From: Spirochaetota bacterium
GTDB lineage: Bacteria > Spirochaetota > Spirochaetia > DSM-27196 > PWMO01
DNA length: 36,353 bases
Direction: 5' to 3'
NCBI GenBank assembly: GCA_009908925.1
Contig: JAAAOH010000125.1
Location: 1 to 36,353, forward strand
Below are positions 17,129-36,353 of this stretch, piece after piece (position 1 is the stretch's first letter; each line of letters opens with the position of its first letter). Below the pieces are notes generated by a model. That model was not told where the DNA came from. It saw nothing but the letters and a program-made list of their open reading frames with translations, and ran no database searches. A program made the position numbers and the translations under genes.

Positions 17129-17220
17129 CCGGAGGCCCCCCACAGTTTATGCCACGAACTATTCTACCCCGAAATGGGGGCGTTGTTCAACAAACTCTCT
17201 TTTTGCGATATGCTCGCGCG

Positions 17221-18825
17221 ATGGGTCTGGTACTTGCTGCATTTTCGGGTCTGGTTACCGCGCTCGCGCTTCCCAATGAGCTCTTCCCCGATGGAAGCGC
17301 CCTGCTCGGCGCGGTTTCGGTGGTTCCCTACCTCCTCGCCCTTGCCGGTGCGCGCTCGCTGAGGGAAGGCTCCCGGATGGGCGCCGTCTACGGGGCGGTC
17401 TCCACACTCGGGGCGAATTACTGGCTCGCCTTCTTCGAAGACTTCTCGGTGTGGACGCTCGGCGGTACCACACTCGGGTATACCCTCATCCACGCGTTTC
17501 TGGCAGTGGTGCTGGTGCGCTTCCTTCGAGAGGAGCGTCTGTGGCGCCCCTTCGCCGTGGCGGCGGCCTGGACGGGCTACGAGTACCTGAAGTCGGTCGG
17601 CTTTCTCGCCTATCCCTGGGGCCTGCTTGCCTACCCGCCGAGCAACATTCTCGTATACGTGCAGCATGTCGAGATTACCGGTATCTGGTCCCTTTCGTTC
17701 ATAACCGCCGCGGCAAACGCGGTGCTCGCCGAGCCGTTTCTGCGACTTCGCGCCGGTGTCGGGCGCCCCTACGCCGGTTCCCCGCGGACGTTCGGTCAGG
17801 GGATCGCCGCCGCGGCTGGGCCCGCTGGGTTCGTGCTGCTGCTCATAGCCCTCGCCGTCGGATTCGGGGTATGGCGATTCGCCAATCCGTTGCCGATTGC
17901 CGGGCACATGAGCGCGGTGCTCGTGCAGCAGAACGTCGACCAGTGGCGCGCCGGACAGGAGGAAGCAAGCCTCCGCCGCGGGCAGGAGCTCACCCGCGAG
18001 GCACTCCGGGAGGCCGATCAGCGGCCGGACCTCGTCGCCTGGAGCGAGACATCCCTGCAGCGTCCCTATCTGCGGTATCAGGACTTCTACCGCACCCATC
18101 CCGCCGGTGACCCCTTCACGGCCTTCCTGCGGGAGATCCAAACACCGTTTCTCACCGGTGCGCCGGTTATCCTCGACGCAGAGAACTGGGAGCTCATGAA
18201 CGGAGCCATCCTCCTCTCGCCCTCGGGTCGACTCGTCGACCACTACGGCAAGCAGCACCTCGTGCCTATGGCGGAGAACATACCGTTCTGGAACTTCGAG
18301 CTGGTGAGACAGTTCTACCGCAACGTCATCGGCCTCACCGGCAGGTGGAGCGTCGGCAACGAGTATACGCTGTTCGAGGTTCCGGTGGCGGACCCCGGCG
18401 TGCAGAGCGTGCGTTTCGGCGCGCCCATCTGCTTCGAGGACTCCTTCGGTTATCTGACCCGCGGATTCGTGTACCTCGGGGCGGATGTTCTGGTGAACCT
18501 TACCAACAATGCATGGTCGCGGACGGACTCCGCGCAGATCCAGCATTTCGTCTCCGCGCGCTTTCGTTCCATCGAGAACCGCCGGTCACTGGCCCGCTCC
18601 ACGAACTCCGGGCTCACCGCTGTGATCGACGCCTACGGACGCGTCACCGCCGAGCTGCCGATGTTCGAGCCCGCCGCGCTCACTGCGGAGATTCCCATCT
18701 ATGATACGAAAGAGCTCACCATCTACACCCGCTACAGCGACTGGCTCGGGAAGCTCCTCCTCGGGATCAGCATGCTTACAGCGGCAGCGCTCTTCCTGCG
18801 CGACCGCGACTACCGGCGTCTTTAA
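17221..18825 (+). CDS. lnt: Apolipoprotein N-acyltransferase, copy 1
   Basis: Multiple hydrophobic segments; WSETSLQRPYL, YGKQHLVPMAE, PICFEDSFGYLTRGFVYLGADVLVNLTNNAWS. Start at ATG 17221 (MGLVLAAFSGLVTALALP). Confidence 0.92.
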   Translation: MGLVLAAFSGLVTALALPNELFPDGSALLGAVSVVPYLLALAGARSLREGSRMGAVYGAVSTLGANYWLAFFEDFSVWTLGGTTLGYTLIHAFLAVVLVRFLREERLWRPFAVAAAWTGYEYLKSVGFLAYPWGLLAYPPSNILVYVQHVEITGIWSLSFITAAANAVLAEPFLRLRAGVGRPYAGSPRTFGQGIAAAAGPAGFVLLLIALAVGFGVWRFANPLPIAGHMSAVLVQQNVDQWRAGQEEASLRRGQELTREALREADQRPDLVAWSETSLQRPYLRYQDFYRTHPAGDPFTAFLREIQTPFLTGAPVILDAENWELMNGAILLSPSGRLVDHYGKQHLVPMAENIPFWNFELVRQFYRNVIGLTGRWSVGNEYTLFEVPVADPGVQSVRFGAPICFEDSFGYLTRGFVYLGADVLVNLTNNAWSRTDSAQIQHFVSARFRSIENRRSLARSTNSGLTAVIDAYGRVTAELPMFEPAALTAEIPIYDTKELTIYTRYSDWLGKLLLGISMLTAAALFLRDRDYRRL

Positions 18826-23381: not shown

Positions 23382-24119
23382 TCAGCCGTCGTGCAAGCCG
23401 GCCTGCCTCTGGTAATTGTCGAAATGCTTCTGGTACTTCTCTTCGAGCATCTCCAGGGTCGTCTCGCGGGCCTTTATCTCGTCGCCCTTGCTCTGCAATT
23501 CCTGGATCTCCTCTTCGAGACCCTCGAGTGTCGCGAGTGTGCCTTCGGATTCCTTTCGGACGAGCTCCACAAACTTCTTCACGCCCTCTTCATCCGAGGG
23601 GTCGAGCTCCTTCGCTGCGCTCAACAGTTCGTGCACCGGCTGGCGGAGGTGGCGCGTGAAGTATACCAGCGACTGATTCAGCGACTCTGCGACGGCTATC
23701 CGCCGCTCCCGTTCGATGACCTGCTGGGCGAGATCCCGATGGCGAAGCACCGCCTTGATGCGGGCAAGCACCTCGGAGAAGTTGAATGGCTTCGTGATGT
23801 AGTCTTCGATTCCGAGCTCGAAGCCCTCGATTTTGTCCTTCACGTCGTCCATGGCGGAGAACATGATGACCGGCACTTCTCTCACGTGCTCGTATTCTTC
23901 GTCCTGCTTGAGCGCACGGGTTACTTCCCACCCGGAGAGCTTTGGCATGATGTTGTCGAGGATGATGAGATCCGGCTCGATATCCGCCGCTATGTCGAGA
24001 GCTTCCTCACCGTCGCGCGCTTTCTCTACGGAGAAACCGAGCTTCGAGAGCATAACGTCGAAGAAGTCGAGATTGATCTGTTCGTCGTCGACGATGAGAA
24101 TCGTTCCCTTATCGTCCAT
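23382..24119 (-). CDS. Response regulator: receiver domain + DHp-like helix/coiled coil
   Basis: ILIVDDEQINLDFFDVML ... PDLIILDNIMPKLSGWE ... VIMFSAMDD ... YITKPFNFSEVLARI; C-terminal coiled coil. Confidence 0.88.
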   Translation of the reverse strand: MDDKGTILIVDDEQINLDFFDVMLSKLGFSVEKARDGEEALDIAADIEPDLIILDNIMPKLSGWEVTRALKQDEEYEHVREVPVIMFSAMDDVKDKIEGFELGIEDYITKPFNFSEVLARIKAVLRHRDLAQQVIERERRIAVAESLNQSLVYFTRHLRQPVHELLSAAKELDPSDEEGVKKFVELVRKESEGTLATLEGLEEEIQELQSKGDEIKARETTLEMLEEKYQKHFDNYQRQAGLHDG

Positions 24120-25785
24120 CGGAAGCACCTTTCCTTTTGATTGTCTCAGAACGACCGCCTGCTGTCAATCTGATCATTCCCCACCTGATAATTCCCGCCC
24201 CGAGTCCGAGAACTGAAAGAGCCACTGCACCCCAGGCTGCCCAGTCGCCCCATCGCGTGTAGAGCGTTGTACCTGCAGTGTAGACCGGAACATCGCGAAC
24301 CATATAGTCCTCGGTGAACGGCTCGAGCAAGCCCTGCATTCGGCCGTTCGGATCGATCACGGTGGTCATACCGCTGTTCGTGCTTCGGATCACCGAGCGC
24401 TGATTCTCGGTTGCGCGGAATACCGCCATCGCCATGTGCTGCATCTGCGCCGGCACGGAATAGGACCATCCGTCGTTGGTAAGGTTCACGATGACCTCGG
24501 CGCCGCGACGCACGAACTCGCGTGACAGATACCCGAATGTGTCCTCGAAGCAGATCGGCGTGGAAAACTTCACCCCGTCGCTCTCGAAAATGGTGTACTC
24601 CTGCCCCGCAGCCCAGAACGTCGTGTCGTTTTCCACGAGAAGGCGATGGAGCCTGGGAAACGAGCGCTGGTAGGGGAAGTGCTCGGTGAAGGGAACGAGG
24701 TGAAGCTTTCGGTACACGCGCCGGAACTCCCCGTTGTCATGGAGCAGAACCGCATTGTGGTCCACCCGCTCGAGCTCACCGTCGAGGTTCCGGCTGAGCA
24801 CCGCGTCGCTGTTCCCGATGACGAACGGGACCGCCTGCACGCCCAGATAGGCGCGAAGCTCATCGACGAGCTGGTACACCTCCGGATCCTGACGATAGCG
24901 CGTGTGGAAACCGATGGCCGGCACGAAGGACGTCTCCGACCACACCACCACGTCAGGGTCGTCCCCGAGCGCGGCGTTACTCTGTCGAATGAGAGCGGTG
25001 AGAGAATCCCGATAGGCCTCGAGGCCGCCACGCCAGGGGTCGATGTTCTGCTGCACCATCGCCACCCGCCAGCTCCGCGCATCCGAGTAATCGACGCGCG
25101 CGGCGAAGCCGTAGCCGAGGGCAATTGCAAACAGAGCTATGTAGGCGGCCGCGTCCATGCGGTGGGTGCGAACGAACTCACCGAATCGCCGTGGACCCTG
25201 TCTCATGCCGGCGGCAATGAAAGCGGAGGGGAACACGACCAGCAGTGAGACGCCCCAGACTCCGGTGAGCGCGGAAAGACGCACAAGCGGGCTGAAGAGA
25301 TACTGGCTGTAGCCGACAATTCCGTAGGCATAGCCGAGGAAGCCCTGAAGCCTGAGGTATTCATACGCGATCCAGATCGCTATCTGCAGCAGATAGCCGT
25401 AGCGCGGGAACAGCCTGTCGGCCAGCTTCAACAGTGGGAATAGCAGCAGGAAGTAGACTGCGTAGATCACGGGGACAATGAAGATTGCCAGCGGATGAAA
25501 GTTGAGCAGCCAGTAGTTGAGCAGCGAGTAGGTTACAAACCCGTACAGCGCCCCGTACAGCCACACCGTCGACCACCGACTCCGTCGGACGACCATGAAC
25601 AGTGGAACGAGAGCAATGTACGCAAGGGGGAACCATCCCCAGTCCGATACGAGACTCGGGAAGGCGAACGAGAAGAGAGCGGCCGACGCGACGATCAGGG
25701 CGAGGTCCGTGAGCAGCTCGGCACTGCGTGTCGAAATTGTACTCTGCAGACTGCCGCGCGAAGCCGCTAGCTCCTTAGCGACCAT
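24109..25785 (-). CDS. lnt: Apolipoprotein N-acyltransferase, copy 2
   Basis: WSETSFVPAIG, YRKLHLVPFTEHFPYQ, TPICFEDTFGYLSREFVRRGAEVIVNLTNDGWS. Confidence 0.92.
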   Translation of the reverse strand: MVAKELAASRGSLQSTISTRSAELLTDLALIVASAALFSFAFPSLVSDWGWFPLAYIALVPLFMVVRRSRWSTVWLYGALYGFVTYSLLNYWLLNFHPLAIFIVPVIYAVYFLLLFPLLKLADRLFPRYGYLLQIAIWIAYEYLRLQGFLGYAYGIVGYSQYLFSPLVRLSALTGVWGVSLLVVFPSAFIAAGMRQGPRRFGEFVRTHRMDAAAYIALFAIALGYGFAARVDYSDARSWRVAMVQQNIDPWRGGLEAYRDSLTALIRQSNAALGDDPDVVVWSETSFVPAIGFHTRYRQDPEVYQLVDELRAYLGVQAVPFVIGNSDAVLSRNLDGELERVDHNAVLLHDNGEFRRVYRKLHLVPFTEHFPYQRSFPRLHRLLVENDTTFWAAGQEYTIFESDGVKFSTPICFEDTFGYLSREFVRRGAEVIVNLTNDGWSYSVPAQMQHMAMAVFRATENQRSVIRSTNSGMTTVIDPNGRMQGLLEPFTEDYMVRDVPVYTAGTTLYTRWGDWAAWGAVALSVLGLGAGIIRWGMIRLTAGGRSETIKRKGASDGR

Positions 25786-33550: not shown

Positions 33551-34321
33551 ATGAAACTGTTTGATTCCCACGCCCATATCGGGTTGATTAATGAAGACCC
33601 GATCGAACAGCTTATGATCGTTCAGGAAGCTCGCCAGGCCGGCGTGCAGGGAATTCTGAGCATCTGCAATAATCTGCGGGACTTCTTCCAGGTCTATGAC
33701 AACCTCAAAACGGCCACGCACGTATATCACAGTGTCGGGGTATCACCATCCGAAGTCGTCAATCCCGGCAAGGATTGGGAGATGCAGGTCGAGGAAGGCA
33801 GCAAGCTCGACCGTGTCGTGGCCGTCGGCGAGACAGGCCTGGACTACTATAGAAAATTCGGCAATAAGGATGCGCAGGTCGAGTTGTTCATTCGCCAGCT
33901 CGAGCTCGCGGCAAAGCTGGACCTGCCGGTTGTCATCCATAACCGCGAAGCCGGACAGGACGTGCTGGAAATTCTCACCGATCGCATCCCGGCGCGCGGC
34001 GGCGTTCTGCACTGTTACTCCGAAGACTGGAACTACGCCGAGCAGGCGCTGGAGCTGCCCCTCTATATATCGTTCGCCGGAAACGTGACGTATCGCAATG
34101 CGCGCAATCTCCACGAAACGGCTAAGAATATGCCCCTCGACCGGATCCTCATCGAGTCCGAGAGCCCCTTCATGGTGCCTGCCGCCCATCGGGGCAAGCG
34201 AAACCGGCCCTCCTATCTCGTGGAAACCCTCAAGTTCATTGCGGAACTCCGCGAGCAACCGGAAGAAGAAGTCGCCGAGGCTCTTTACGAGAACTCACGG
34301 AGGCTCTTCAACATAGGCTGA
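33551..34321 (+). CDS. TatD family hydrolase-like protein
   Basis: FDSHAHI, VVAVGETGLDYYRK, LPVVIHNREAGQDVLEIL, GVLHCYSED, RILIESESPFMVP. Confidence 0.9.
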   Translation: MKLFDSHAHIGLINEDPIEQLMIVQEARQAGVQGILSICNNLRDFFQVYDNLKTATHVYHSVGVSPSEVVNPGKDWEMQVEEGSKLDRVVAVGETGLDYYRKFGNKDAQVELFIRQLELAAKLDLPVVIHNREAGQDVLEILTDRIPARGGVLHCYSEDWNYAEQALELPLYISFAGNVTYRNARNLHETAKNMPLDRILIESESPFMVPAAHRGKRNRPSYLVETLKFIAELREQPEEEVAEALYENSRRLFNIG

Positions 34322-34422
34322 CAAGCCGCGCGCTTGACCGCCCCCACGGAAACGAGTACAAACACTCAAAATGCGCACCTCCGACGGCCGTTGCAGCCGT
34401 GGGTAGGACGCGGGGAGTGTGA

Positions 34423-35508
34423 GTGCGAGTCTTCTTCGTCGGAACAACCACAGTTGAGCACGCCCTACTGTGGCGACTATCAGCAAGCCGGCGCATTGCC
34501 GGTCTCTACTGCGCGTCGCCGGGACCGGCCAGACTCGGTCTTGCGAAACTCCTCGCCGGCGGACGAATGAACGTCGGGGAGCTCGCGGCGGCCTGCAACG
34601 CTCACCGCGTTGACCTCGCGATTCTCCGCTCCGGCGATGAGCTAACCTCTGCCCTCTCACACGCGCTCTCGGAGGCGGGCATCACCGTCCTCGGCACAGC
34701 TGAGCTCGATGAGCGGATCGCGCTCGCCGAGGGTATACTCGAGTCGGACGGTCTCATGCAGAAGCCGCGGCCCGGGCCAGCGGGGGCCGTCGGGACAGCC
34801 GAAGGGATCGAGGCACCCGAGCTCTCGGTGTTCGCGCTCACCGACGGTACGACCGCGCGCGTGTTTCCCGCCTGCGAGCGTCACGCGGCAACAGGCAGAC
34901 ATCGGCCGGCAGGCGTTCCTCAGAGCGCGGGCGCCGTGGCACCGGTCCCCTGGGCCGATACCGCCCTCACCGGACGCATCGAGCGCGATATCGTCAATAG
35001 AACGGTCGAGACCCTCGGGTCGGCCGGCTTTCTCCACCGGGGTATCATCCGCTTCACTGTGAGAGTCTCCGCCGACGGGCCTCTCGTTGAGTGCGTGCGT
35101 TTCGGACTCTCAGAGCCCGAAACGTCGGTGCTTATGCCACTTCTCGACATCGACCTCGGGACGGTACTCGAGGCAGTCGTCGAGGGCAAGCTGAGCTCAG
35201 TGCCCTTCAGCTTCCGCAACGGCTCTGCGATCGCAATAGTCCTGACCAATGACACGGAGGTATCTCTCCCGATTGCGAAGCCGGTTGTTGCAGTCCCGGG
35301 GTTCGAGGCTCGTGATACCATCGTGTTTCTCGCTGAGCACGAGGGGGGACCGCGGTCTCTGACTGTCCCGCCCGGGGGCTCACTTACGGCCGTAGGTATA
35401 GGCCGGGATGCCCTCCGCGCGCGCGACCGCGCCATGCGGCTTGCCGGCGAGTTGTCAGAATCGGGATTCTCTTTCAGTAAAGAAGTCGGACAGGATATGT
35501 TTCGCTGA
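34423..35508 (+). CDS. PurD-like (phosphoribosylamine--glycine ligase) homologue lacking much of the ATP-grasp core
   Basis: N-terminal MRVFFVGTTTVEHALLWRLSASRRIAGLYCA; LSVFALTDGTTARVFPACERHAATG; RGIIRFTVRVSADGPLVECVRFGLSEPETSVLMPLLDIDL. GTG start. Confidence 0.72.
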   Translation: MRVFFVGTTTVEHALLWRLSASRRIAGLYCASPGPARLGLAKLLAGGRMNVGELAAACNAHRVDLAILRSGDELTSALSHALSEAGITVLGTAELDERIALAEGILESDGLMQKPRPGPAGAVGTAEGIEAPELSVFALTDGTTARVFPACERHAATGRHRPAGVPQSAGAVAPVPWADTALTGRIERDIVNRTVETLGSAGFLHRGIIRFTVRVSADGPLVECVRFGLSEPETSVLMPLLDIDLGTVLEAVVEGKLSSVPFSFRNGSAIAIVLTNDTEVSLPIAKPVVAVPGFEARDTIVFLAEHEGGPRSLTVPPGGSLTAVGIGRDALRARDRAMRLAGELSESGFSFSKEVGQDMFR

Positions 35509-35529: not shown

Positions 35530-36353
35530 CTATCCGTCTCGCCGGCGCATTTCGTACATCAGGATGCCCGCCGCGACGGATACATTGAGGGAATCGACGT
35601 GACCACGGGTGGGTATGGAGACGAGCTCGTCACACCGCTCGCGCACAAGGCGGCTGAGGCCCTCTCCTTCGCTCCCGAGCACCAGTGCGACACGACCGGT
35701 AAGGTTCAACGAGGACACAGCAGTGCCGTCCGTGGCTGCACCGTAGACCCAGAAATCGGCGTCCTGCAACCGGTCAAGCGCCTGGGCGATGTTGGAAACC
35801 GTGAGACGGGGCACGTAGGCCGCGGCACCGGCAGAGGTTCTGGTGAGAGTCGCCGTGTCGGGGGCCGCTCGCCGTTCCCGGCTGATGACGAGGTCCGCAC
35901 CGAACTGATCGGCGCTGCGCAGTATCGCACCGACATTGTGCGGATCGGTGATACCATCGAGCACGACGGCCAGGGAGACCGTTGCCTCGAGCGTCGTCAG
36001 AAAGCCCTCGAGCGTCTTCGGGCTTCCTTTTGGGGCCGCGGTGCCGACCAACACCGCTCCGCGGGCCTCCCCGCCGCCGAGACGGGCGAGGTCGTCTGGA
36101 CCGACGTGCTCAACGGGCAGCCCCCGCTCGCGTGCCTGCTCCTCGATGTCACGTGCTTTCCTGTTCCGGCCCGCAATGTAGACCGTTCCCGAAAGGCGTG
36201 AGCTTCTGAGCGCCTCGAACACCGCGTGATAGCCGGAGTAGACGCTTCGCCCCCCACCGCCGGCTCCGGCTCCGGCTCCCGCTGCGGCTCCCGTTGCGGC
36301 TCCGGCTCCGGCGTCGCTGCCGGCGCCGTGGTCAGCGGGGCTGCTGCCGCCCG
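35530..36353 (-). CDS. rlmB: TrmH/RlmB-type 23S rRNA 2'-O-methyltransferase; ORF open past the right window edge
   Basis: DPHNVGAILRSADQFGADLVI, VALVLGSEGEGLSRLVRERCDELVSIPTRGHVDSLNVSVAAGI. Frame stays open upstream of 36222 through ...GGGGRSVYSGYHAVFEALR. Confidence 0.88.
   Translation of the reverse strand, partial: GGSSPADHGAGSDAGAGAATGAAAGAGAGAGGGGRSVYSGYHAVFEALRSSRLSGTVYIAGRNRKARDIEEQARERGLPVEHVGPDDLARLGGGEARGAVLVGTAAPKGSPKTLEGFLTTLEATVSLAVVLDGITDPHNVGAILRSADQFGADLVISRERRAAPDTATLTRTSAGAAAYVPRLTVSNIAQALDRLQDADFWVYGAATDGTAVSSLNLTGRVALVLGSEGEGLSRLVRERCDELVSIPTRGHVDSLNVSVAAGILMYEMRRRDG
36262..36311. repeat. Imperfect GGCTCC hexanucleotide repeat
   Basis: ggctccggctccggctcccgctgcggctcccgttgcggctccggctccgg. 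Confidence 0.85.

Follow-up and report, generated by a model that had tools for sequence, protein, structure and literature searches.

A PurD-like protein without the ATP-grasp lid at the native purD position of a spirochaete with a foreign-type purine gene cluster

De novo purine synthesis is a near-universal pathway, and PurD (GAR synthetase) is normally an active ligase within it. Biosynthetic operons can be replaced horizontally, a process known as xenologous displacement. The PurD family, represented by the TIGR00877 profile and by the Pfam domains GARS_N and GARS_A, has a lid (B) subdomain as part of its ATP-grasp module. For the Aquifex enzyme, nine charged residues are assigned to substrates or metal: E100, K103, K143, E185, E192, D212, K214, R287 and E292 (PMC8880213). 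Prozymes are paralogues that have lost catalysis and serve to activate a live partner; the cited accounts outline this for AdoMetDC of T. brucei (PMC5201418) and for the deoxyhypusine synthase of trypanosomatids (PMC3663545). A limited search of titles and abstracts in the open-access literature for PurD or ATP-grasp found no description of a PurD pseudoenzyme.

The window analysed here is a stretch of DNA of 36,353 nucleotides, and the features under discussion are listed in Table 1. A reading of the sequence alone had proposed an intact frame of 361 codons with PurD-like N- and C-terminal parts. Both proposals hold. The frame is open from its GTG start, and the spacing of the GGAG element ahead of it has the same layout as that ahead of active purD in relatives (G002, G003, G004 and G009). 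The translated protein matches GARS_N (2.9e-9), GARS_A (6.1e-8) and the solved PurD 2ip4 (1.5e-25), and it has the domain order of PurD. Unlike family members, it scores under the equivalog cut-off of TIGR00877 (112.8 versus 288 bits). By these matches, the protein is homologous to PurD at both ends, far beyond chance.

Table 1. Positions of the PurD-like open reading frame, its parts and neighbours in the window, and of the purine cluster on contig C160
Feature	Position	Strand	Description	Evidence
Lid-less PurD-like putative pseudoenzyme	34423..35508	+	361 aa, GTG start	Profile, PDB and AlphaFold matches
GGAG, Shine-Dalgarno-like	34414..34417	+	5 nt 5′ of GTG	
N domain, residues 1-109	34423..34749	+		
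P/A/G-rich linker, residues 112-128	34756..34806	+	Replaces ~60-residue ATP-grasp lid (B) subdomain	
Retained ATP-grasp half, residues 129-279	34807..35259	+	Catalytic residues lost	
C-terminal domain, residues 280-361	35260..35505	+		
tatD	33551..34321	+	Conserved upstream neighbour, 81-82% identical in same family	
rlmB	35530..36222	-	Conserved, convergent, on the downstream side; 52% identity within the family	
purL-purC-purF-purM-purN-purD	C160 8757-17143	-	Foreign-type complete cluster, beside native treXYZ	

Homology of full PurD length, with the lid included, is not present. The match to a family HMM built from 26 orthologues stops at model position 96, resumes at 182 and continues to 415 (of 416), and alignments of solved PurDs to the protein skip ∼60 residues. 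The other five frames of the stretch give no significant match to the family HMM; a compensated frameshift that hides the lid is ruled out, as the PurD signal is confined to the one frame. The missing part corresponds to approximately residues 112–172 of a typical PurD, which we take to be the lid (B) subdomain from knowledge of the PurD fold and from the points at which alignments with solved PurDs break. What remains comprises the N domain, the larger half of the ATP-grasp module and the C domain, and the initial description of a PurD that has lost its ATP-grasp core is therefore overstated, although a subdomain of that module is indeed gone. Similarly, the P/A/G-rich linker that had been placed at about residues 100–130 exists, but it is only 17 residues long (about 112–128), since residues 96–108 still align with the helix that closes the N domain. 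In the AlphaFold model, pLDDT is low at residues 116–129.

The AlphaFold model as a whole, made from an alignment with 30 full-length PurDs, has a pLDDT of 80.8 and a pTM of 0.83. Its best 15 PDB matches by Foldseek are all PurD, and the TM scores by query length are 0.79–0.83 for 14 of the 15 chains. The absence of a structural match, which had been named as an outcome that would speak against a PurD relationship, was thus not encountered. Because the input alignment consists of PurDs, the model shows compatibility and is not a proof: the predicted protein is compatible with a lid-less PurD fold in its retained domains.

At the amino acid level, the active site differs extensively from that of the family. 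Mapped by alignment, the equivalents of Aquifex E100, K103 and E185 are D96, I99 and A126, and K143 is deleted; D212, K214 and R287 are represented by R153, A155 and G228. Thus seven of the nine charged ligand and metal residues are altered or absent, and only E192 and E292 (E133 and E233 here) are unchanged. The N-domain motif GxGxREHA reads GTTTVEHA, PGNAGT reads SPGPAR, and the NTGGMGA loop reads VPQSAGA; the PE of GDPE persists. Among 60 polar, Gly or Pro positions that are invariant in the 26 orthologues, 37 are changed and 23 kept. The loss of catalytic residues proposed at the outset is borne out, and its extent had been understated. With two of nine charged residues and 23 of 60 invariants kept, GAR ligase activity is very unlikely.

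The PurD-like frame occupies the genomic place of native purD. In relatives, both within the same family (those with a purD match) and across the order, the gene order is tatD-purF-purM-purN-purD-rlmB; G003 is the genome in which the pur genes lying between tatD and purD were all read, and in the others they were deduced from spacing and purM matches. In the window, the same tatD and rlmB flank the frame directly, with a gap of only 101 bp after tatD (34322–34422), in which no traces or fragments of purF, purM or purN were found. All same-family relatives with a purD match have a normal purD of 414 aa. These PurDs are 67–93% identical among themselves, and the protein described here is only 26–30% identical to them. 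By its position, the frame is judged to be orthologous to native purD. The assignment depends mainly on synteny, because tree placement is unsure from the length of the branch: in the best tree the protein groups with its own family with a support of only 56/41, and its end branch is very long (7.4 in the drawn tree and flagged as 10 in the unrooted tree, the median being 0.48). A scan found no convincing promoter or terminator of its own near the frame. It lies in the same direction as tatD with no terminator-like site in the scanned stretch, and co-transcription with tatD is possible.

A search for orthologues with the same deletion, which had been suggested as a check, found none in 61 relatives, at the level of the order (46 genomes) or class (395 genomes), or in the genome_contigs collection. 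The converse outcome, orthologues that restore the lid, did not occur either; the genus is represented by one genome, and no genome of the genus restores it. PurD-like proteins with 21–32% identity are also present in phage records MT838306.1, MT835784.1 and 12 others, all from human faeces and unannotated beyond 'Bacteriophage sp.'. These may represent phage-borne purine genes or bacterial contigs.

A full-length purD, whose presence elsewhere was also to be checked, is found on a second contig of the same genome, C160, in a complete cluster of foreign type. Gene names on C160 were read from translations, and those of purD, purC, purF and purM are also backed by searches. In searches of the genome, purM, purC and purF were found on C160 only, and no native purF, purM or purC was found outside it. 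A second GATase_6 match, in a 626-residue frame on contig C137, is probably GlmS, judging from its length. With 100/100 support, the C160 PurD is separated from every native PurD of the class; it branches among those of Bacillota, Fusobacteriota and others. The contig itself is host DNA, since the adjoining treXYZ matches the family at 57–61% (TreY is 61% identical to the same-family TreY); in the family, treXYZ is not beside pur genes. GC content is similar to that of the host, and contamination is ruled out by the native treXYZ together with the composition.

Synteny and the C160 cluster together show a native purD left behind after replacement of its operon by a foreign one, a cause that the sequence-only reading had missed. 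As in other xenologous displacement, a foreign purL-C-F-M-N-D stands in place of native purF-M-N-D. The difference is that one displaced gene has stayed, without a whole subdomain and apparently constrained rather than gone. In another family of the order, f8, a purC-purF-purM-purN-purD cluster (G029:C22, 4848–10945) is related to that of C160 and encodes a PurF 68% identical to the C160 protein. One genome of the order, G038, has a native purD on contig C13 and a foreign-type purM-purN-purD on contig C47 (2738–7503); this double set is either a second acquisition or contamination.

The displaced gene could be a functionless relic, dispensable after arrival of the foreign operon, which by luck or recency has not yet acquired a stop codon. 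Redundancy and operon replacement account for relaxed constraint and for the deletion without any new function, and the gene is a singleton in one genus. In addition, open frames persist more easily in GC-rich DNA, and the intact frame alone is therefore weak evidence; 32 of 20,000 Markov copies of this GC-rich stretch were open end to end. Decay was accordingly simulated, starting from the 26 active PurDs and stopping at the observed share of lost invariant polar residues. The neutral loss of 37 of 60 invariants takes ∼1.4–1.7 substitutions per codon, and therefore 4–9 stops on average would be expected, with the hydrophobic core reduced to 50–67%. In the simulations, means of 3.8–8.7 stops were obtained, and 50–67% of hydrophobics were kept at 80 core columns, compared with no stops and 86% in the actual sequence; none of 3,900 simulations match it in both respects. 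The core test uses an alignment at 26–31% identity and the simulations leave indels uncounted; these would damage a relic further, but the gaps outside the lid are few and in frame. For comparison, the active C160 PurD (43% identity to the reference) retains 84% of the core hydrophobics and 92% of the polar invariants.

Other measures bear on the same question. A branch codon model disfavours ω = 1 (2ΔlnL of 36 over all columns and 33 when the deletion flanks are left out). The estimate of ω is ∼0.25–0.34 only if the branch is 6–8 substitutions per codon, and saturation at synonymous sites keeps it from being firmly fixed. The frame uses codons much as the host does (z = 4.5); its codon-usage gain is the lowest among 20 genes of the window, yet near those of the photolyase and RlmB genes. 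Stops, frameshifts and lost structural constraint, the marks of a pseudogene, are not seen, and a plain pseudogene is disfavoured by the site-pattern simulations. The relic explanation is accordingly considered unlikely, although it is the most serious of the alternatives. In a variant of it, a long-kept pseudoenzyme may have died only recently; a codon model with a late neutral phase gave a phase length of zero, a weak result since the branch is saturated. The indirect evidence, judged from a single sequence, suggests that purifying selection on a folded protein continues. The original suggestion of a maintained non-ligase protein rather than fresh decay is in this way supported, with core hydrophobics at the level of an active enzyme and catalytic residues lost.

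Two further explanations are much less probable. Another kind of enzymatic activity might reside in the C domain and what is left of the ATP-grasp module, for which the two persisting acidic residues and the PE remnant could be cited. However, the lid that clamps ATP is gone with its lysines, the equivalents of D212, K214 and R287 are lost, and the NTGGMGA loop is replaced, and such an activity seems improbable. An assembly or binning artefact might be considered, in which the contig is a chimera or an ordinary purD was damaged during assembly, as the gene is carried by a single assembly, a fragmented MAG with 82% completeness and 6% contamination. Yet misassembly could not produce a divergence that extends along the entire protein while a single frame stays open, the expected neighbours are present at normal identity, and the same-family relatives with a purD match all have the normal gene. 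This makes an artefact highly improbable.

The history proposed for the maintained protein begins with horizontal acquisition of purL-C-F-M-N-D, now beside treXYZ, which replaced native purF-M-N-D. Native purD was stranded and, freed from catalysis, lost the lid and most of its substrate and metal residues. The remaining scaffold of N domain, half ATP-grasp and C domain would still be expressed and soluble, with selection for its folding. Its role would most likely be by binding and not by catalysis; it might modulate the foreign PurD or PurF in the manner of a prozyme, or serve as a scaffold or to bind a ligand. That the stranded gene encodes an expressed, folded pseudoenzyme with a binding rather than a catalytic role is the favoured interpretation and a reasonably probable one. 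The protein possibly binds a partner in purine synthesis. The more specific proposal, that the lid was excised from the displaced PurD to give a non-catalytic regulator or scaffold that aids the foreign enzymes, and thus a prozyme born of xenologous displacement, is speculative and rather doubtful.

As with prozymes, a dead copy is kept together with a live enzyme for the same reaction of a biosynthetic pathway. The prozymes outlined in the two cited accounts are paralogues (PMC5201418; PMC3663545), whereas in this genome it is the native gene that is dead and a foreign xenologue that is live. If functional, the protein would show that pseudoenzymes can arise when the native copy is freed by replacement of its operon and not by duplication.

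Apart from the purine genes, the window has two paralogues of Lnt (apolipoprotein N-acyltransferase), at 17149–18825 on the forward strand and 24109–25785 on the reverse strand. They are ∼5 kb apart, 558 aa each, and 32% identical.
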